From NCBI GenBank assembly GCA_944325835.1, contig CALVBO010000002.1, positions 124,001-188,000 on the forward strand: 64,000 nt of DNA. The letters run 5' to 3'. Shown here in pieces: positions 6,435 to 62,314 of this stretch (positions are counted from its first letter, which is position 1; each line of letters starts with the position of its first letter). Under the pieces are notes generated by a model. That model saw only the letters and a list, made by a program, of their open reading frames with translations. It had not been told where the DNA came from and ran no database searches. Both the position numbers and the translations under genes were made by a program. The DNA comes from Candidatus Gastranaerophilales bacterium (GTDB lineage Bacteria; Cyanobacteriota; Vampirovibrionia; Gastranaerophilales; Gastranaerophilaceae).

Positions 6435-7319
6435 ATGGGTTTAGAATTTGCTATTGATAAGGAAAAATGTGTTCACTGCGGCAAGTGCGTAAAGGATTGT
6501 CTTGTCGGGATAATTGAATTTGACGGGGATAAAACTCCGCGTTTAACGCCTGATGCAGAGGAAAGATGTATCAACTGCCAGCACTGCCTTGCAATATGTC
6601 CGACAGGCGCGCTTTCTATCCGCGGGCGAAAACCGGAGAATTCCGAACCTGTTGACCGCCAGCAAAATCCTGAAAAACTCCTTAATCTAATCAAAAACAG
6701 AAGAAGTTTCAGGCACTATAAGCCGGAAAACCTTCCTGCCGAAACTCTGGAGAAGCTCAAAAATATGTTAAACTGGGTTCCGACCGGCTGTAACAACCAC
6801 GGTCTGCATTTTTCGTTCATTGATGATGTTGAAGTTATGAACGAATTTCGCGGCTATGTTAACTCAGAACTTTTAAAGCAGTTAAGCAAAACACCTGTCA
6901 GAGGTATTATGAACAAGTTTTCACGCTACAAAGATGCATTTCTTAAAGGTGAGGACGTAATTTTTCGCGGCGCACCGCACATGGTTGTCGCAAGCGCTCC
7001 GATTGATGCACCTTGCGCTAATGTAGACCCGATTATCGCATTAAGTTACTTTGAGCTTTACGCCCAAAGCCTCGGGGTTGCAACTCTCTGGTGCGGATTT
7101 GCCGAAGCGTGCCTGCTCTTTTTCCCTGAACTGTGCGACAAACTTGAAATCCCTGAAAACTACAAAGCCTCATACGTAATGCTTTTCGGCCCTGCGGATG
7201 TAAAATACGCACGCTCAACACAACCGGATCCCGTTGGCATATCAATAGTAAAGAAAGGTGCTGTACAAAAAATCGGATTAAAACAAAAAATTAAACGGCT
7301 TTTCTGGAATTTAAGATAA
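6435..7319 (+). CDS. Ferredoxin-nitroreductase fusion
   Basis: The 294-residue protein begins with a two-cluster ferredoxin domain: CVHCGKCVKDC near residues 12-22 and CINCQHCLAICP near 44-55. A nitroreductase-like flavin domain follows (NRRSFRHYKPENLP at about 90, then VPTGCNNHGL and a C-terminal AYxMLFGPADVKY stretch). Such fusions are FMN oxidoreductases that take electrons through the built-in Fe-S clusters, common in anaerobes. AGGAG precedes the ATG. It converges with the phosphatase gene and overlaps its 3' end by 9 bp. The physiological substrate is unknown. Confidence 0.88.
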   Translation: MGLEFAIDKEKCVHCGKCVKDCLVGIIEFDGDKTPRLTPDAEERCINCQHCLAICPTGALSIRGRKPENSEPVDRQQNPEKLLNLIKNRRSFRHYKPENLPAETLEKLKNMLNWVPTGCNNHGLHFSFIDDVEVMNEFRGYVNSELLKQLSKTPVRGIMNKFSRYKDAFLKGEDVIFRGAPHMVVASAPIDAPCANVDPIIALSYFELYAQSLGVATLWCGFAEACLLFFPELCDKLEIPENYKASYVMLFGPADVKYARSTQPDPVGISIVKKGAVQKIGLKQKIKRLFWNLR

Positions 7320-10366: not shown

Positions 10367-11326
10367 TTAACGATTGACGCAACGAAGATCCATCTCGGTA
10401 GTTCTATCGAGCGGTTCTCTAAGTATCAAACCTGTAGTTCCCCATAAATACCATGCGTAATCCGCTGAATAGAGGGAAGATGACCAGTAATAGCCTTCAT
10501 GCAGCCCGAGCAGTCTTGTATTAACAAACATTGCCGCAAGTTCATAATCAGTAGGCGCCCGCAGTTTTCCGCTTTGCAGCGAACATGCTTTACCTGCCGC
10601 CTCAGACTGGGTTTTTGACGGAATATCTTCATAATACGGATTCGGCCCGACAACAATACTGTCAACAGGTTTGAAAACCGTAATAAAACCAATATCTTTA
10701 CCAACAGTATTCGGAGCCTTAATTCCGTTTAAATCGTAAATCATATTTATACATACTGATGACGCCGAAAAATAATTCGGGAAGTCTTTCTGTTCAAACA
10801 CTGAACAAACAGGGTTGAAGAAAAGATTTATGCTTTCACCGTTATCGGTAAAAAATGCTACACTATCAAAATCGTCCTGATGGTATGAATAAACACTTCC
10901 GGTTTCGGCATCCTCATAAAACATATCAACAAGTTTAGGGTTTAATTCACCCCATGATTTAGGCATTCTGAAGATAGTACCGTCAGTAGCGGTAATCGTT
11001 TGCGGCAAACCACACCCGAAGAATTTATCACCGGCACAAACCATATGAACTTTTACAAGATCACGATACTGATCCAGAAAATCTTCTGCCGAATGAAAAT
11101 CCCGCAGTGTATCCAAAAGCGGCAACGCTTGCGAAACACGGGTTAACAGGACTTTTTTTCTGACCTTGAAAATAAGATCTTCAACGTTTGCCTGCAAAGT
11201 CGGCAGCGTTAACACTGTAACGACACCAATTATAGTAAGCGCTATTACAACCTCTACCAGAGTAAACGCTCTTAATTTTCTATTCAATAAATTTTTTATG
11301 TAACCAACAAAATTATTATTTATCAT
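10367..11326 (-). CDS. Prepilin-like protein with C-terminal DUF1566-like domain
   Basis: The 319-residue protein has a basic N-terminus and a type IV pilin/pseudopilin helix (FTLVEVVIALTIIGVV, residues 21-36). The Glu at position 5 of the mature form is present, but the residue before Phe is Ala, not Gly. The C-terminal part contains KAPNTVGKDIGFI and ends YYWSSSLYSADYAWYLWG...LRCVNR, like DUF1566/Lcl-type lectin-fold domains. Two shorter relatives lie at 54.9 and 60.6 kb. Unlike them it has no poly-G leader. It is probably exported through a type II/IV pilus-like system and displayed at the surface. Confidence 0.8.
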   Translation of the reverse strand: MINNNFVGYIKNLLNRKLRAFTLVEVVIALTIIGVVTVLTLPTLQANVEDLIFKVRKKVLLTRVSQALPLLDTLRDFHSAEDFLDQYRDLVKVHMVCAGDKFFGCGLPQTITATDGTIFRMPKSWGELNPKLVDMFYEDAETGSVYSYHQDDFDSVAFFTDNGESINLFFNPVCSVFEQKDFPNYFSASSVCINMIYDLNGIKAPNTVGKDIGFITVFKPVDSIVVGPNPYYEDIPSKTQSEAAGKACSLQSGKLRAPTDYELAAMFVNTRLLGLHEGYYWSSSLYSADYAWYLWGTTGLILREPLDRTTEMDLRCVNR

Positions 11327-11404: not shown

Positions 11405-12493
11405 TTACTCAAGAAATTCTGACAAAATAGTATTACTAACCAAAATCCCCGATTGCGTAAGACTATAGACACTATTTTTACATTCAATATGTCCGGTTAA
11501 CATATATTTACTTAAAACTTCTTTATATTTTTTCGCGAAGTCAATATTAAACTTTGCATTTATAAAATCAACATTAATGCCTGATTTTAAACGCAGCCCC
11601 AGAAAAATTTCTTCCTCTAACTTTTCCTGTTCATCAAGTTGCCGACTGAAATCTTTACGCAGAGGATTTTCCAGATAATCATCAAGGTTAATAGGGTTAG
11701 AATACCGCACACCGTTTACATATCCGTGCGCAGCAAGCCCGAAGCCGTAATATTCCTGATTTTTCCAGTAATTGTTATTGTGACGCGAAAATTTGCCACC
11801 ATGTGCAAAATTACTTATCTCGTAGTGTTCAAAACCACGCTCTTTCAGAGCGTCAATTGCACTCAGATACATTTGCGCCTGCATCTCTTCATCCGCAATA
11901 TTTTGGGGCATTTGAGAGTAGAAGAAACAACCTTCCTCTATTTTTAACCCGTAAAGCGAAATATGTTCAACACCGAGTGACGCTGCACACTTTAAATCGG
12001 AAATAAAACTTTCCTCCGTCTGATTTGGAAGCCCGTAAATAAAATCCAGACTTATATTATTAAATCCTGCACAGCGCGCCTCTTCTACAACCCTGAATAC
12101 ATCGGAACTTTTATGTCTGCGCCCGATACACCTTAAAATTTCATCATCAAAACTCTGCACCCCGATACTCAAACGGTTTACAGGAGTTCTAGCAAGGGAT
12201 TGGAAGTATTCCGCTCCAACAGTTTCAGGGTTCAATTCCAGCGTCACTTCCAGCCCGTCCTTAATAGTAAATAATTTCAAAATTCCCTCAAGCTCTTTAA
12301 CAGACAAAAGCGAAGGGGTTCCACCGCCAAAATAAAGTGTTTCCAAGGCTTCCCCGCCATATTCCGATTTAATCTGATTTTTCAAAGCATTAATATAAGC
12401 TCCTTTTCGCTCCAATACCGGAAACGAAACAAACGAACAATAATGACACTTACTTTTACAAAAAGGAATATGAATATAAGCGCTTTTTACCAT
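11405..12493 (-). CDS. hemW: Radical SAM coproporphyrinogen III oxidase-like protein (HemW family)
   Basis: The 362-residue protein starts MVKSAYIHIPFCKSKCHYCSF, with the CX3CX2C radical-SAM cluster motif, then YFGGGTPSLL, NPETV and RLSIGVQSFDDEIL, all typical of HemW/HemN-like enzymes. The C-terminus has the HemN_C-like winged region. HemW proteins bind heme and deliver it; true HemN carries out anaerobic coproporphyrinogen decarboxylation. From sequence alone HemW is more likely. The mRNA looks leaderless: TATGAT is 6 nt before the ATG and no Shine-Dalgarno site is present. Confidence 0.88.
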   Translation of the reverse strand: MVKSAYIHIPFCKSKCHYCSFVSFPVLERKGAYINALKNQIKSEYGGEALETLYFGGGTPSLLSVKELEGILKLFTIKDGLEVTLELNPETVGAEYFQSLARTPVNRLSIGVQSFDDEILRCIGRRHKSSDVFRVVEEARCAGFNNISLDFIYGLPNQTEESFISDLKCAASLGVEHISLYGLKIEEGCFFYSQMPQNIADEEMQAQMYLSAIDALKERGFEHYEISNFAHGGKFSRHNNNYWKNQEYYGFGLAAHGYVNGVRYSNPINLDDYLENPLRKDFSRQLDEQEKLEEEIFLGLRLKSGINVDFINAKFNIDFAKKYKEVLSKYMLTGHIECKNSVYSLTQSGILVSNTILSEFLE

Positions 12494-54837: not shown

Positions 54838-54867
54838 TAAAAAAGAGGGGTAAGGCCCCTCTTTTTT
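54838..54867. terminator. Bidirectional terminator between argS and prepilin-like gene
   Basis: AAAGAGGGG-5 nt-CCCCTCTTT followed by TTT, and preceded by an A-run for the opposite strand. Confidence 0.9.
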
Positions 54868-56030
54868 AGCGTTTAACACATTGTGCTGATATATCACCGG
54901 TTTCATCTTTGAACACAGAACCCATTACACCTGCATTACCGTTAAGTTGTATAATTCTGTTTGCACTGCCGGGTGAGGAGCTTGTATAAAACTGCATTGT
55001 AGATATATTGGGAATAAATTTTTTGTTAACCCACAATGAAATTGCTTCCTCCTTATTTGGCAGCCTTGCATCGTCCTGTTCACGGCAAAATTTCACAGCA
55101 TCATCATAATAACCGGTTTTAGTTTGATAAACAGGCATCGGGCTGACAACATTTGAGTCAAAAGAATACAACGCCGTTATAAAACCAACATCTTTACCTA
55201 CAGTATTCGGCCCTTTAGAACCGTTAAGGTCATAGATAAAATTTGCACAAATCAAAGGCGAAACAATATATGCCGTAAGCCTTTCTTCTGCCCCGCGGCA
55301 AGAAGGATTGTAGTAGACGACCAAACTTTCGCCGTTCTGTGTTTCAAACGCAGCCGCTTTGGCATTAATCATAGAATGCGAATCTAATGACAGACCGGCA
55401 TAAGAAGCATTAATCATTTTGGAATTTAATTCTAACCAATCAAGCGGCAGGTCGACCGCAGAACCGGTTGTATTAATGCTGCTTACAATACCGCAATCCT
55501 CAAGGTGGTCACTGTCACAAATATTATTAATCTTAAGCACCTTAGCCAGACCATCTGTGATAAAAGTTTCAGCAGCAGTGTCCACTGCATCACTTGCGCC
55601 GGAGGAACTGTCTTCCGTCAGTGTTCCGTAGCCGTTAAGTGAAGGCATAAGCGCGATTGCCTGTGAAAATCTTGCATAAAGAGCTTTTCTTTGCGTGTTC
55701 CAGGTGCGCTCGTTAATGTTTCCCGTCAGTGACGGAAGCGTTATCGCCGCCACCACGCCGATTATCGTGAGGGATAATAATATTTCTGCCATGGTAAATG
55801 CTATTCGACGTCCGTGAGCCCGTAAACCAATTATGGCTCTCGACTCAGTCGGTGTCATTCCGAACTTGTTTCGGAATCTGTCCGGCGACACCGGTAGTTC
55901 GCAACACTGGTCAGATGCTGAAACGAGTTCAGCATGACATGGGGAACTTACGACCTCAACTCCTAATTGGGCGGATAAAGCCGGCCCCCCCCCCCCCCGT
56001 GCAAATTGTTACATTCCTCTGTTTTTTCAT
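54866..56030 (-). CDS. Prepilin-like protein with poly-G leader (frame OFF as sequenced)
   Basis: The body has a prepilin helix FTMAEILLSLTIIGVV, a conserved LNGSKGPNTVGKDVGFI segment and a C-terminus QCVKR, like the 60.6-kb paralogue. The only start with a ribosome site is ATG 56030 (AAAGGA 7 nt upstream); its leader MKKQRNVTICT enters a G14 tract. G13 would read straight into the prepilin frame. G14 stops after about 14 further codons at TGA. An internal GTG at 55891 opens the body but lacks a Shine-Dalgarno site. The leader also contains a dispersed palindromic repeat (55853-55939). Probably a phase-variable surface or pilus-associated protein. Confidence 0.8.
55853..55939 (-). repeat. Dispersed palindromic repeat inside prepilin leader
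   Basis: Contains CATGCTGAACTCGTTTCAGC and ATTCCGAAACAAGTTCGGAA, both self-complementary, joined by a variable centre. It reads in frame with the prepilin body (CHAELVSASD...DRFRNKFGMT). The 15424-15511 repeat is related. Confidence 0.7.
55985..55998 (-). repeat. G14 homopolymer tract
   Basis: Fourteen consecutive G on the coding strand, 32 nt after the leader ATG. Such runs mutate by slipped-strand mispairing and switch the reading frame. Confidence 0.9.
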
Positions 56031-60574: not shown

Positions 60575-61640
60575 TTAACGTTTGACGCACCGCACCGCGA
60601 GGTTGTCAATAGTCATGTGGTTCATAACCCCTACTGAGAACTTGACATACCACGCTTCATCAATGGAAGATGATAAAGAAGATGACCAGTACCTATCCTG
60701 TGTCATATTACCGATTAAATTTTTATTGATGAACAAAGCCCCCAGTTCTTCTTTTGACGGCATCCGGTAGTCGCTATCCTGATTTTTACAAATACCGCTT
60801 ACATCATCCATCGCAACAGCCGTTGATGCATCATTAGGCTGTGGATACGGTGCAACTATCAAACTGTCCGTCGGATAAAATACCGTAATAACACCCATAT
60901 CTTTGCCTATTGTATTTGGGCCCTTGTTGCCATTTAAATCATAAAGGAAATTAGCACACATTTTCTTCTGCACATAGATATAATTCGGCTCGGCTAAAAG
61001 CGTTGTACAGCGCGGATTATAATAAAGTGCAATACTTTCGCCGTTTGCAGTTTCAAATGCGGCGGCTTTGGAATTAATCTGCGAATAAGAATGCATACCA
61101 CCAGAACCGGAAGTCCAAACTACAGATACCGAGGTATTCAAAGGATTTAACGCTTCAAGGTCAATCGGGAAATCCATCTGGCTGCCTGCAAGAGTCGTAA
61201 CTTTTTCCGGCAAACCGCAGTCATCGAGGTGTTCATTATCACAAATATTATTAATTTTTAAAACCTTTGATAATCCGCCGGTCAAGAAAGTTTCCGCGAC
61301 ATTATCCACACCGTCGCCGGCGCCGGGAGATGATTCCTCCTGCAGCGTACCATAACCGTTTAAAGAATCCATTAACGGTATTGCCTGTGACAAGCGGGCA
61401 TAAAGCGCTTTTCTCTGCGTGTTCCAAGTGCGTTCGTTTATGTTGCCGGTAAGTGACGGAAGCGTTATCGCTGCAACCACACCGATTATCGTGAGGGATA
61501 ATAAGATTTCTGCCATTGTGAATGCTAAATTCTTGCTCGGATTCAATTGTGGAAGTCGCTCAGCGGCCGACTCCTCAATTGTGCCTGTTAAGAGAGGCCC
61601 CCCCCCCCCCTGATAAAATCCTTACATTTCGATTTTTCAT
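60575..61640 (-). CDS. Prepilin-like protein with poly-G leader and DUF1566-like end (frame OFF)
   Basis: The body has FTMAEILLSLTIIGVV, then NINERTWNTQRKALYARLSQAI, GPNTIGKDMGVI and a DUF1566-like end RYWSSSLSSSIDEAWYVKF...VRCVKR. The start with a ribosome site is ATG 61640 (AAAGGA 8 nt upstream). Its leader MKNRNVRILS enters G13. G12 would continue as GGGG-PLLTGTIEESAAERLPQ into the prepilin; G13 stops at TGA seven codons after the tract. An internal TTG at 61546 lacks a ribosome site. Close paralogue of the 54.9-kb gene. Confidence 0.8.
61598..61610 (-). repeat. G13 homopolymer tract
   Basis: Thirteen consecutive G on the coding strand, 30 nt after the leader ATG, in the same position as the G14 tract of the paralogue. 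Confidence 0.9.
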
Positions 61641-61778
61641 TCTTTCCATCCTTTCTTTTTTTCTAGTTAATCAGTTAATTAGGATTATGGGAGTTTATCC
61701 GGGTTTATTCTCGTCAATTCGGTCATATTCCTTATTAACTCTTTAACCTATTAACTTATTAACTTTTATCGTCCATTC

Positions 61779-61996: not shown

Positions 61997-62314
61997 ATGA
62001 AAAGTATTAAAGGATTACTGGGGAAAAGAATAAAAGAACTTAGACAGTCTAAACACCTGTCACAACAAGAATTAGCAGAAAAAATAGGGATTGATCAGAG
62101 AAATTTAAGCAATATTGAATGCGGAAACACTTTCCCTTCAAAATCTCTTACGCGCTTAGCCGCAGCTTTAAACATAGATTTACAGGAACTTTTTGACTTT
62201 GACCATTACAAAACCGATGAAAGCAGCATGATTGAATACATTCAGAAAAATTTAGCGAGCCTTTCACCGTCTGATTTGAGAACTGTTTACAGACTTATTA
62301 AATCTATGCATTAG
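61997..62314 (+). CDS. XRE-family transcriptional regulator (105 aa)
   Basis: The N-terminal HTH is LGKRIKELRQSKHLSQQELAEKIGIDQRNLSNIECGN. A short C-terminal helix (SPSDLRTVYRLIKSMH) may dimerise. GGGAAGGG lies before the ATG. Its 3' end overlaps the convergent MFS gene by 11 bp. It is divergent from the poly-G prepilin gene across a 356-bp gap, so it could regulate it; that is only inference. Confidence 0.85.
   Translation: MKSIKGLLGKRIKELRQSKHLSQQELAEKIGIDQRNLSNIECGNTFPSKSLTRLAAALNIDLQELFDFDHYKTDESSMIEYIQKNLASLSPSDLRTVYRLIKSMH

Follow-up and report, generated by a model that had tools for sequence, protein, structure and literature searches.

Poly-G tracts in the leaders of a large prepilin-like gene family point to a probable phase-variable pilin-adhesin repertoire in Gastranaerophilales

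What might a run of 13 guanines be doing between a well-formed translation start and a prepilin-like gene that it places out of frame? The question is raised by a gene, here called copy 2, on the minus strand of a 64,000-nucleotide stretch of a Candidatus Gastranaerophilales genome (the window). From 61640 down to 61598, preceded by an RBS-like site, copy 2 has an ATG, a 10-codon leader and then exactly 13 G, so that the local order is AAAGGATGGAAAGA, ATG, the leader codons, G13 and CCTCTCTTAACAGGC. The RBS-like AAAGGATGG (61646–61654), which contains AAGGA, lies ahead of a leader (61611–61640; ATG AAA AAT CGA AAT GTA AGG ATT TTA TCA, or MKNRNVRILS) that fits the family motif MKxRxVxxxx, and AAGGAT or AAGGGT is found before poly-G leaders throughout the genus. 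Beyond the tract itself (61598–61610) come a 75-nt spacer, PLLTGTIEESAAERLPQLNPSKNLA (61523–61597), which is a multiple of three and open in the prepilin frame, and a predicted mature pilin-like protein of 315 aa with its stop codon, FTMAEILLSLTIIGVVAAITLPS...VKR (60575–61522).

Read from the leader ATG, the 13 Gs give four GGG codons, seven further codons and a TGA. With 12 Gs the same start yields MKNRNVRILS-GGGG-PLLTGTIEESAAERLPQLNPSKNLA-FTMAEILLSL... as far as the stop at 60575, a product of 354 aa, and G9 or G15 likewise opens one ORF to that stop. As assembled, copy 2 is OFF, one G in excess of an ON length (G9, G12 or G15), and it qualifies as a contingency locus in that a homopolymer within the ORF sets the frame. 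The earlier note had described this leader with G12 as the in-frame length and G13 present, followed by a prepilin-like gene; the minus-strand sequence bears out both points, since G12 opens an intact type IV prepilin-like ORF. Its account of a similar tract in a second gene, copy 1, also stands, with G14 present and G13 an ON length.

Copy 1, also on the minus strand, has the leader MKKQRNVTIC(T) (55999–56030), a G14 tract that is OFF as assembled (55985–55998; ON at G10, G13 or G16), a 186-nt spacer made of modules common to other family members (55799–55984) and a predicted mature pilin-like protein of 310 aa plus stop codon (54866–55798). A third and divergent member on the same strand (10373–11281, about 37–39% identity) has no G9+ tract upstream. 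Nine-mer G matches in the window number 11, compared with 0.12 expected from shuffles. Across the whole 1.95-Mb genome there are about 100 matches (102–103) to the copy 2 protein and 95 G9+ tracts, 65 of which are found a short way upstream of a same-strand family member; about half of the remaining 30 sit at contig ends that truncate family members. The typical locus consists of an RBS, an ATG, a 10–13-codon leader of the form MKxRxVxxxx, G11–G15, a spacer of 15–700 nt and then FTMAEILLSLTIIGVVAAITLPSL, and the poly-G copies retain the RBS, ATG, leader and open spacer at each locus. The two loci originally noticed are both real, but they are only 2 of about 65 or more. That they could switch independently had been deduced from their different ON lengths, which is a wrong inference: independence comes from their being separate loci.

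Our account starts from what we observe, namely the anatomy of these loci, the constraint on frame, the size of the family, the differences in length and frame between sister genomes, purifying selection and the taxonomic spread. We consider it highly probable that copy 2 belongs to a set of about 65 or more translational contingency loci that subject a pilin-adhesin repertoire to slipped-strand phase variation, together with reshuffling of ORF cassettes. Transcription and the leader ATG would always be available at each locus, slipped-strand replication would change the number of Gs, and that number would decide the exit frame, leading into the prepilin when ON (G9, G12 or G15 in copy 2) and to a stop within about 10 codons when OFF. 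An ON allele would produce a prepilin with an unusually long leader composed of short peptide, poly-Gly and spacer; prepilin peptidase would cut at A/FTMAE and the poly-Gly and spacer would be discarded, leaving a mature pilin with an Lcl-type lectin-like domain that is identical whatever the spacer. Tens of genes switching independently could then give combinatorial surface variation, with exchange of ORF bodies between loci as a slower layer of change. There are no expression data, and slippage as the cause, ON and OFF states at the protein level, processing, surface display and adhesion are inferred.

Comparison with a sister genome (G001; L061, BRZ_KI__bin23), in which there are 87 tracts, allowed 44 tracts to be paired with tracts of this genome through the upstream flank. 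Of the six pairs with the same spacer, four have tracts of unequal length (G14/13 in three and G11/12 in one), three of these four change between OFF and ON, and the ON/OFF state differs at 8 of 25 orthologous sites with readable frames. It had been proposed that a lack of length variation across strains would refute switching; these orthologues remove that objection for the family, copy 2 itself being 13/13. A change of both tract length and frame between close relatives is thereby met for the family and not for copy 2, which is G13 and OFF in both genomes and whose own switching is inferred from that of its relatives. With differences in tract length and OFF/ON state between sister genomes, the phase-switch reading is supported and passes the tests available, in the absence of read-level data.

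The same pairs indicate that more than tract length has changed. Many paired loci have a conserved upstream flank, and often a conserved downstream flank too, around a spacer and an ORF body that are not the same in the two genomes. Flanks of 99% and 99% identity and a leader of 100% accompany a middle of 76% and a C-terminal part of 66% in one pair (L176/L225); flanks of 92% and 98% enclose a different paralogue in another (L141/L206); and in a third (L161/L290) the spacer is kept at 100% and the C-terminal part is not. As far as sequence alone can tell, these patterns support exchange of ORF cassettes between loci, and they suggest, from few pairs and without a statistical test, that crossover takes place at the poly-G itself. 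One could go further and propose a two-layer system of surface diversity in this non-photosynthetic cyanobacterial gut lineage, in which the poly-G is at once the switch of each pilin-lectin gene and a recombination junction among about 100 loci and the discarded leader buffers in-frame mosaic modules, a possibility that we offer only tentatively.

The swapping of ORF bodies between conserved flanks is also what might be seen if the OFF copies were silent cassettes or decaying pseudogenes and only a small number of recombined or regulator-controlled copies were expressed, in the manner of gonococcal pilE/pilS. In favour of this, most members lacking poly-G have an upstream region of their own with a divergent XRE regulator: the 13 that we examined have short or medium leaders, often with palindromes before the ATG, and an XRE-type regulator is divergently placed beside 12 of them (members without poly-G, nearly all with such a regulator, include L040, L046, L049, L050, L059, L142, L170, L174, L179, L184, L187 and L194). 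These neighbours were identified by reading the divergent ORFs, as a strict consensus search misses most of them. Poly-G members generally have no XRE neighbour, and copy 2, which adjoins a divergent XRE/HTH_3 regulator (61997–62314, plus strand), is the exception found. The XRE regulator and own upstream region would constitute a second, alternative control mode within the same family. As an account of the poly-G copies, however, the silent-cassette explanation seems unlikely to us, because each poly-G locus keeps an RBS, ATG, leader and open spacer, none of which a silent cassette needs, and about 20% of poly-G copies are in frame now. Where the ORFs of a pair could be aligned, which was so in seven pairs, dN/dS is 0.04–0.18; some of these genes are OFF in both assemblies (L028/L222, L150/L211, L178/L286 and L180/L208), so genes that are OFF nevertheless show purifying selection and are not dead. 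The exact ratios are soft because dS was probably raised by recombination between paralogues. Copy 2 differs between the genomes by one synonymous and three non-synonymous changes, too few to judge selection.

The preferred reading, slipped-strand switching, must also accommodate the distribution of tract lengths. Among 97 readable tracts in the two genomes, 68 are one G above ON, 21 are ON and 8 have other offsets, a non-uniformity that simple random slippage does not predict. The modal length follows the leader class (G13 or G14) and the same offset is kept (Fisher 2e-9); tract length follows reading frame, and therefore the frame in which the tract is read is of consequence. One could take this offset as a preference for a poised OFF state; why one direction should be preferred is unexplained. 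Because own-genus alleles thus occupy a preferred state, not a random mix, and the usual state in other genera appears to be one G short, it might be argued that transcriptional slippage or ribosomal frameshifting on the poly-G yields some prepilin from every allele, the tract being a low-level setting and not a heritable switch. We give this idea little credence: two preferred offsets across genera would need two different recoding mechanisms, the DNA lengths of orthologues change and in-frame alleles are among them, and non-family poly-G genes in the same assembly are mostly in frame.

A different concern is that miscalled lengths conceal tracts that are in reality invariant and in frame. 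All lengths reported here are assembly consensus from metagenomes, in which poly-G is error-prone; work on Bifidobacterium carries a warning that Illumina reads misbehave through G-tracts (PMC9187656), and runs of G17–G30 are present at contig ends. Such an artefact nevertheless looks improbable, in that the modal length depends on leader class with the frame kept and the architecture agrees across separate assemblies. A general over-call by one G is unsupported, as six of eight non-family poly-G genes with long ORFs are in frame in the same assembly.

The spacers between tract and prepilin core are, judged by their frames, coding. Spacer length is a multiple of three in 54 of 55 cases. In spacers of at least 60 nt the prepilin frame is open in 48 of 49 and either other frame in 0 of 49, where base shuffling expects 3.7 to be open, and the open frame reaches back to the tract itself, through as much as 696 nt. 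In some members just 5–11 codons separate the tract from the core with no start codon among them, and translation must therefore pass through the Gs. Thus a start inside the spacer that makes the poly-G irrelevant, for which copy 2 offers a TTG-start ORF at 61546, is scarcely credible, given that this TTG has no well-placed RBS, that spacers are open as far as the tract and that the short-spacer members, lacking any start codon downstream of it, rule such a start out. The spacers are also mosaic: a mean of 86% of each is common to other spacers, and modules shared on the same strand are in identical frame in 865 of 1002 matches. In a search within the window only, few matches were found elsewhere, which gives no support for spacers as genome-wide interspersed repeats and makes the modules look mainly family-internal.

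The predicted product combines two recognizable parts. Across 40 paralogues the N-terminus is almost invariant, FTMAE is invariant and cysteines are conserved. Copy 2 fits the prepilin pattern of a hydrophobic helix at the N-terminus, with F at +1 and E at +5 of a prepilin peptidase site; the predicted cleavage is A/F, residue -1 in the family usually being A and not G, and the N_methyl and GFxxxE models match below cut-off. In a structure model built on a seven-sequence alignment (mean pLDDT 72), residues 3–50 form a long helix at the N-terminus. At the other end, Lcl_C (PF07603) matches 32 of 40 paralogues at E<=0.01 and copy 2 at 8.9e-7, below the curated cut-off (60581–60784, minus strand), and the best PDB fold match is the C-terminal domain of Legionella Lcl (8q4e, E 1.9e-3), followed by C-type lectin-like folds, so that a significant profile match and a fold match agree on an Lcl_C/C-type-lectin-like domain. 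These models would make the protein a pilin N-helix joined to an Lcl-type, C-type-lectin-like C-terminal domain, whose filament assembly and surface exposure are inferred. The genome has one PF01478 match over cut-off to a prepilin peptidase. A cut before FTMAE is inferred to remove leader, poly-Gly and spacer, and the spacers may be free to vary because cleavage would discard them.

How far does this arrangement extend? The leader-motif survey that the earlier note had called for detected the pattern of leader plus poly-G in each of the six genomes of the genus that carry poly-G, at 25–54 forward-strand matches per genome, and a reversed-pattern control gave 0. At gltX-linked loci in other genera most G9+ runs lie within the leader of a prepilin-like gene; the gltX relatives of this genome include Ca. 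Gastranaerophilus phascolarctosicola. Order-wide, G9+ tracts occur in 315 of 383 genomes, often at 20–150 per genome in the bacterial family to which this genome belongs and at 0–6 in the six other families. On sequence evidence, then, the leader/poly-G/prepilin architecture is widespread in the bacterial family. One genome of the same genus (G210, 96% completeness) has no G9+ tracts and 18 family members; its congeners have 103–129 members and 87–132 tracts. Several tracts in the G. phascolarctosicola assembly (L062, around 6517–6540 and 11581–11604) and in a further genome (G048) contain NN joins inside the poly-G, as if their length could not be resolved.

The class of mechanism is known from Neisseria, Campylobacter and Bifidobacterium. 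The tract of Neisseria Opa genes consists of CTCTT repeats in the leader, and that of PilC is a poly-G in the signal region; as here, a repeat tract lies within the leader of a surface protein, but the protein families are others and the loci several-fold fewer. Rickettsia palindromic elements are repeat modules kept in frame within ORFs, whereas the modules described here occupy a presumed discarded prepilin leader, are shared in frame among paralogues and have not been shown to be mobile. The Legionella Lcl adhesin (PDB 8q4e) has the same kind of C-terminal C-type-lectin-like domain (PF07603) on a collagen-like stalk instead of a type IV pilin N-terminus. Opa is a multi-locus phase-variable family of about 11 independently switched genes (PMC3745409). 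Antigenic variation at Neisseria pilE/pilS, which involves a guanine quartet (PMC3547852), likewise swaps pilin sequences between loci by recombination, but there one expression site is served by silent copies and here many loci each have an RBS, ATG and tract; variation of that type, from silent copies to one expressed locus, is not met by these loci, though ORF exchange is seen. Campylobacter and Helicobacter have poly-G phasomes (PMC6321876), with 29 tract-associated genes in H. canadensis (PMC2823697), and share with this genome a large number of homopolymer tracts as contingency loci, catalogued there over various genes and found here mostly in one prepilin family. A similar design is that of the sortase-pilus system of the gut commensal Bifidobacterium breve UCC2003, in which a slipped-strand G-tract switch between a secretion-signal ORF and the rest of the pilin gene is established, replication slippage giving ON and OFF at lengths around G11–G12 (PMC9187656). 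Unlike the family described here, the sortase pili are encoded in a few clusters per genome without a large paralogous family, and neither a prepilin peptidase step nor a mosaic spacer is involved.

In a literature search we found no paper joining Gastranaerophilales and phase variation, and a search for Gastranaerophilales and pilin returned general mentions only. Features that appear to be new are the lineage, how many loci a single family contains, the placement of the tract in a prepilin leader that is presumably discarded, the mosaic spacers kept in frame and the co-occurring cassette exchange. If our reading is correct, uncultured gut Gastranaerophilales carry a very large single-family phase-variable repertoire, comprising at least 65 switchable lectin-like pilins within less than 2 Mb of genome, and each cell could display a different mix of surface proteins. 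This would help explain strain-level heterogeneity and assembly breaks in Gastranaerophilales genomes, would indicate that surface structures are under strong pressure of an immune, phage or glycan-binding kind and would offer a natural test of the number of independent switches used simultaneously per cell.

Several smaller observations concern individual loci. A sub-class of members with a CTGAAAACCCTTGTA-type leader (L043, L047, L162, L175 and L189; L212, L267 and L287 in the sister genome) is almost always G12 in both genomes. The poly-G tracts in genes outside the family (L232, L234–L237, L239 and L241; G000 C3, C5, C6, C8 and C12), mostly in frame, belong to three neighbouring AlgX-like acetyltransferase genes, a tail-fibre-like gene (Gp53-like_C), an AAA ATPase, a DUF2963 protein and one unassigned protein. 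The prepilin motif FTQAEVLITQGIIG on the minus strand near 6593 of L100 has Q twice where the relatives seen have L. Lastly, the minus strand of L098 carries at 11717 an in-frame poly-G10 (MNYRNIKLLI-GGG...-CLSLLLCSQSLA) in a sequence that resembles an ordinary Sec signal peptide.
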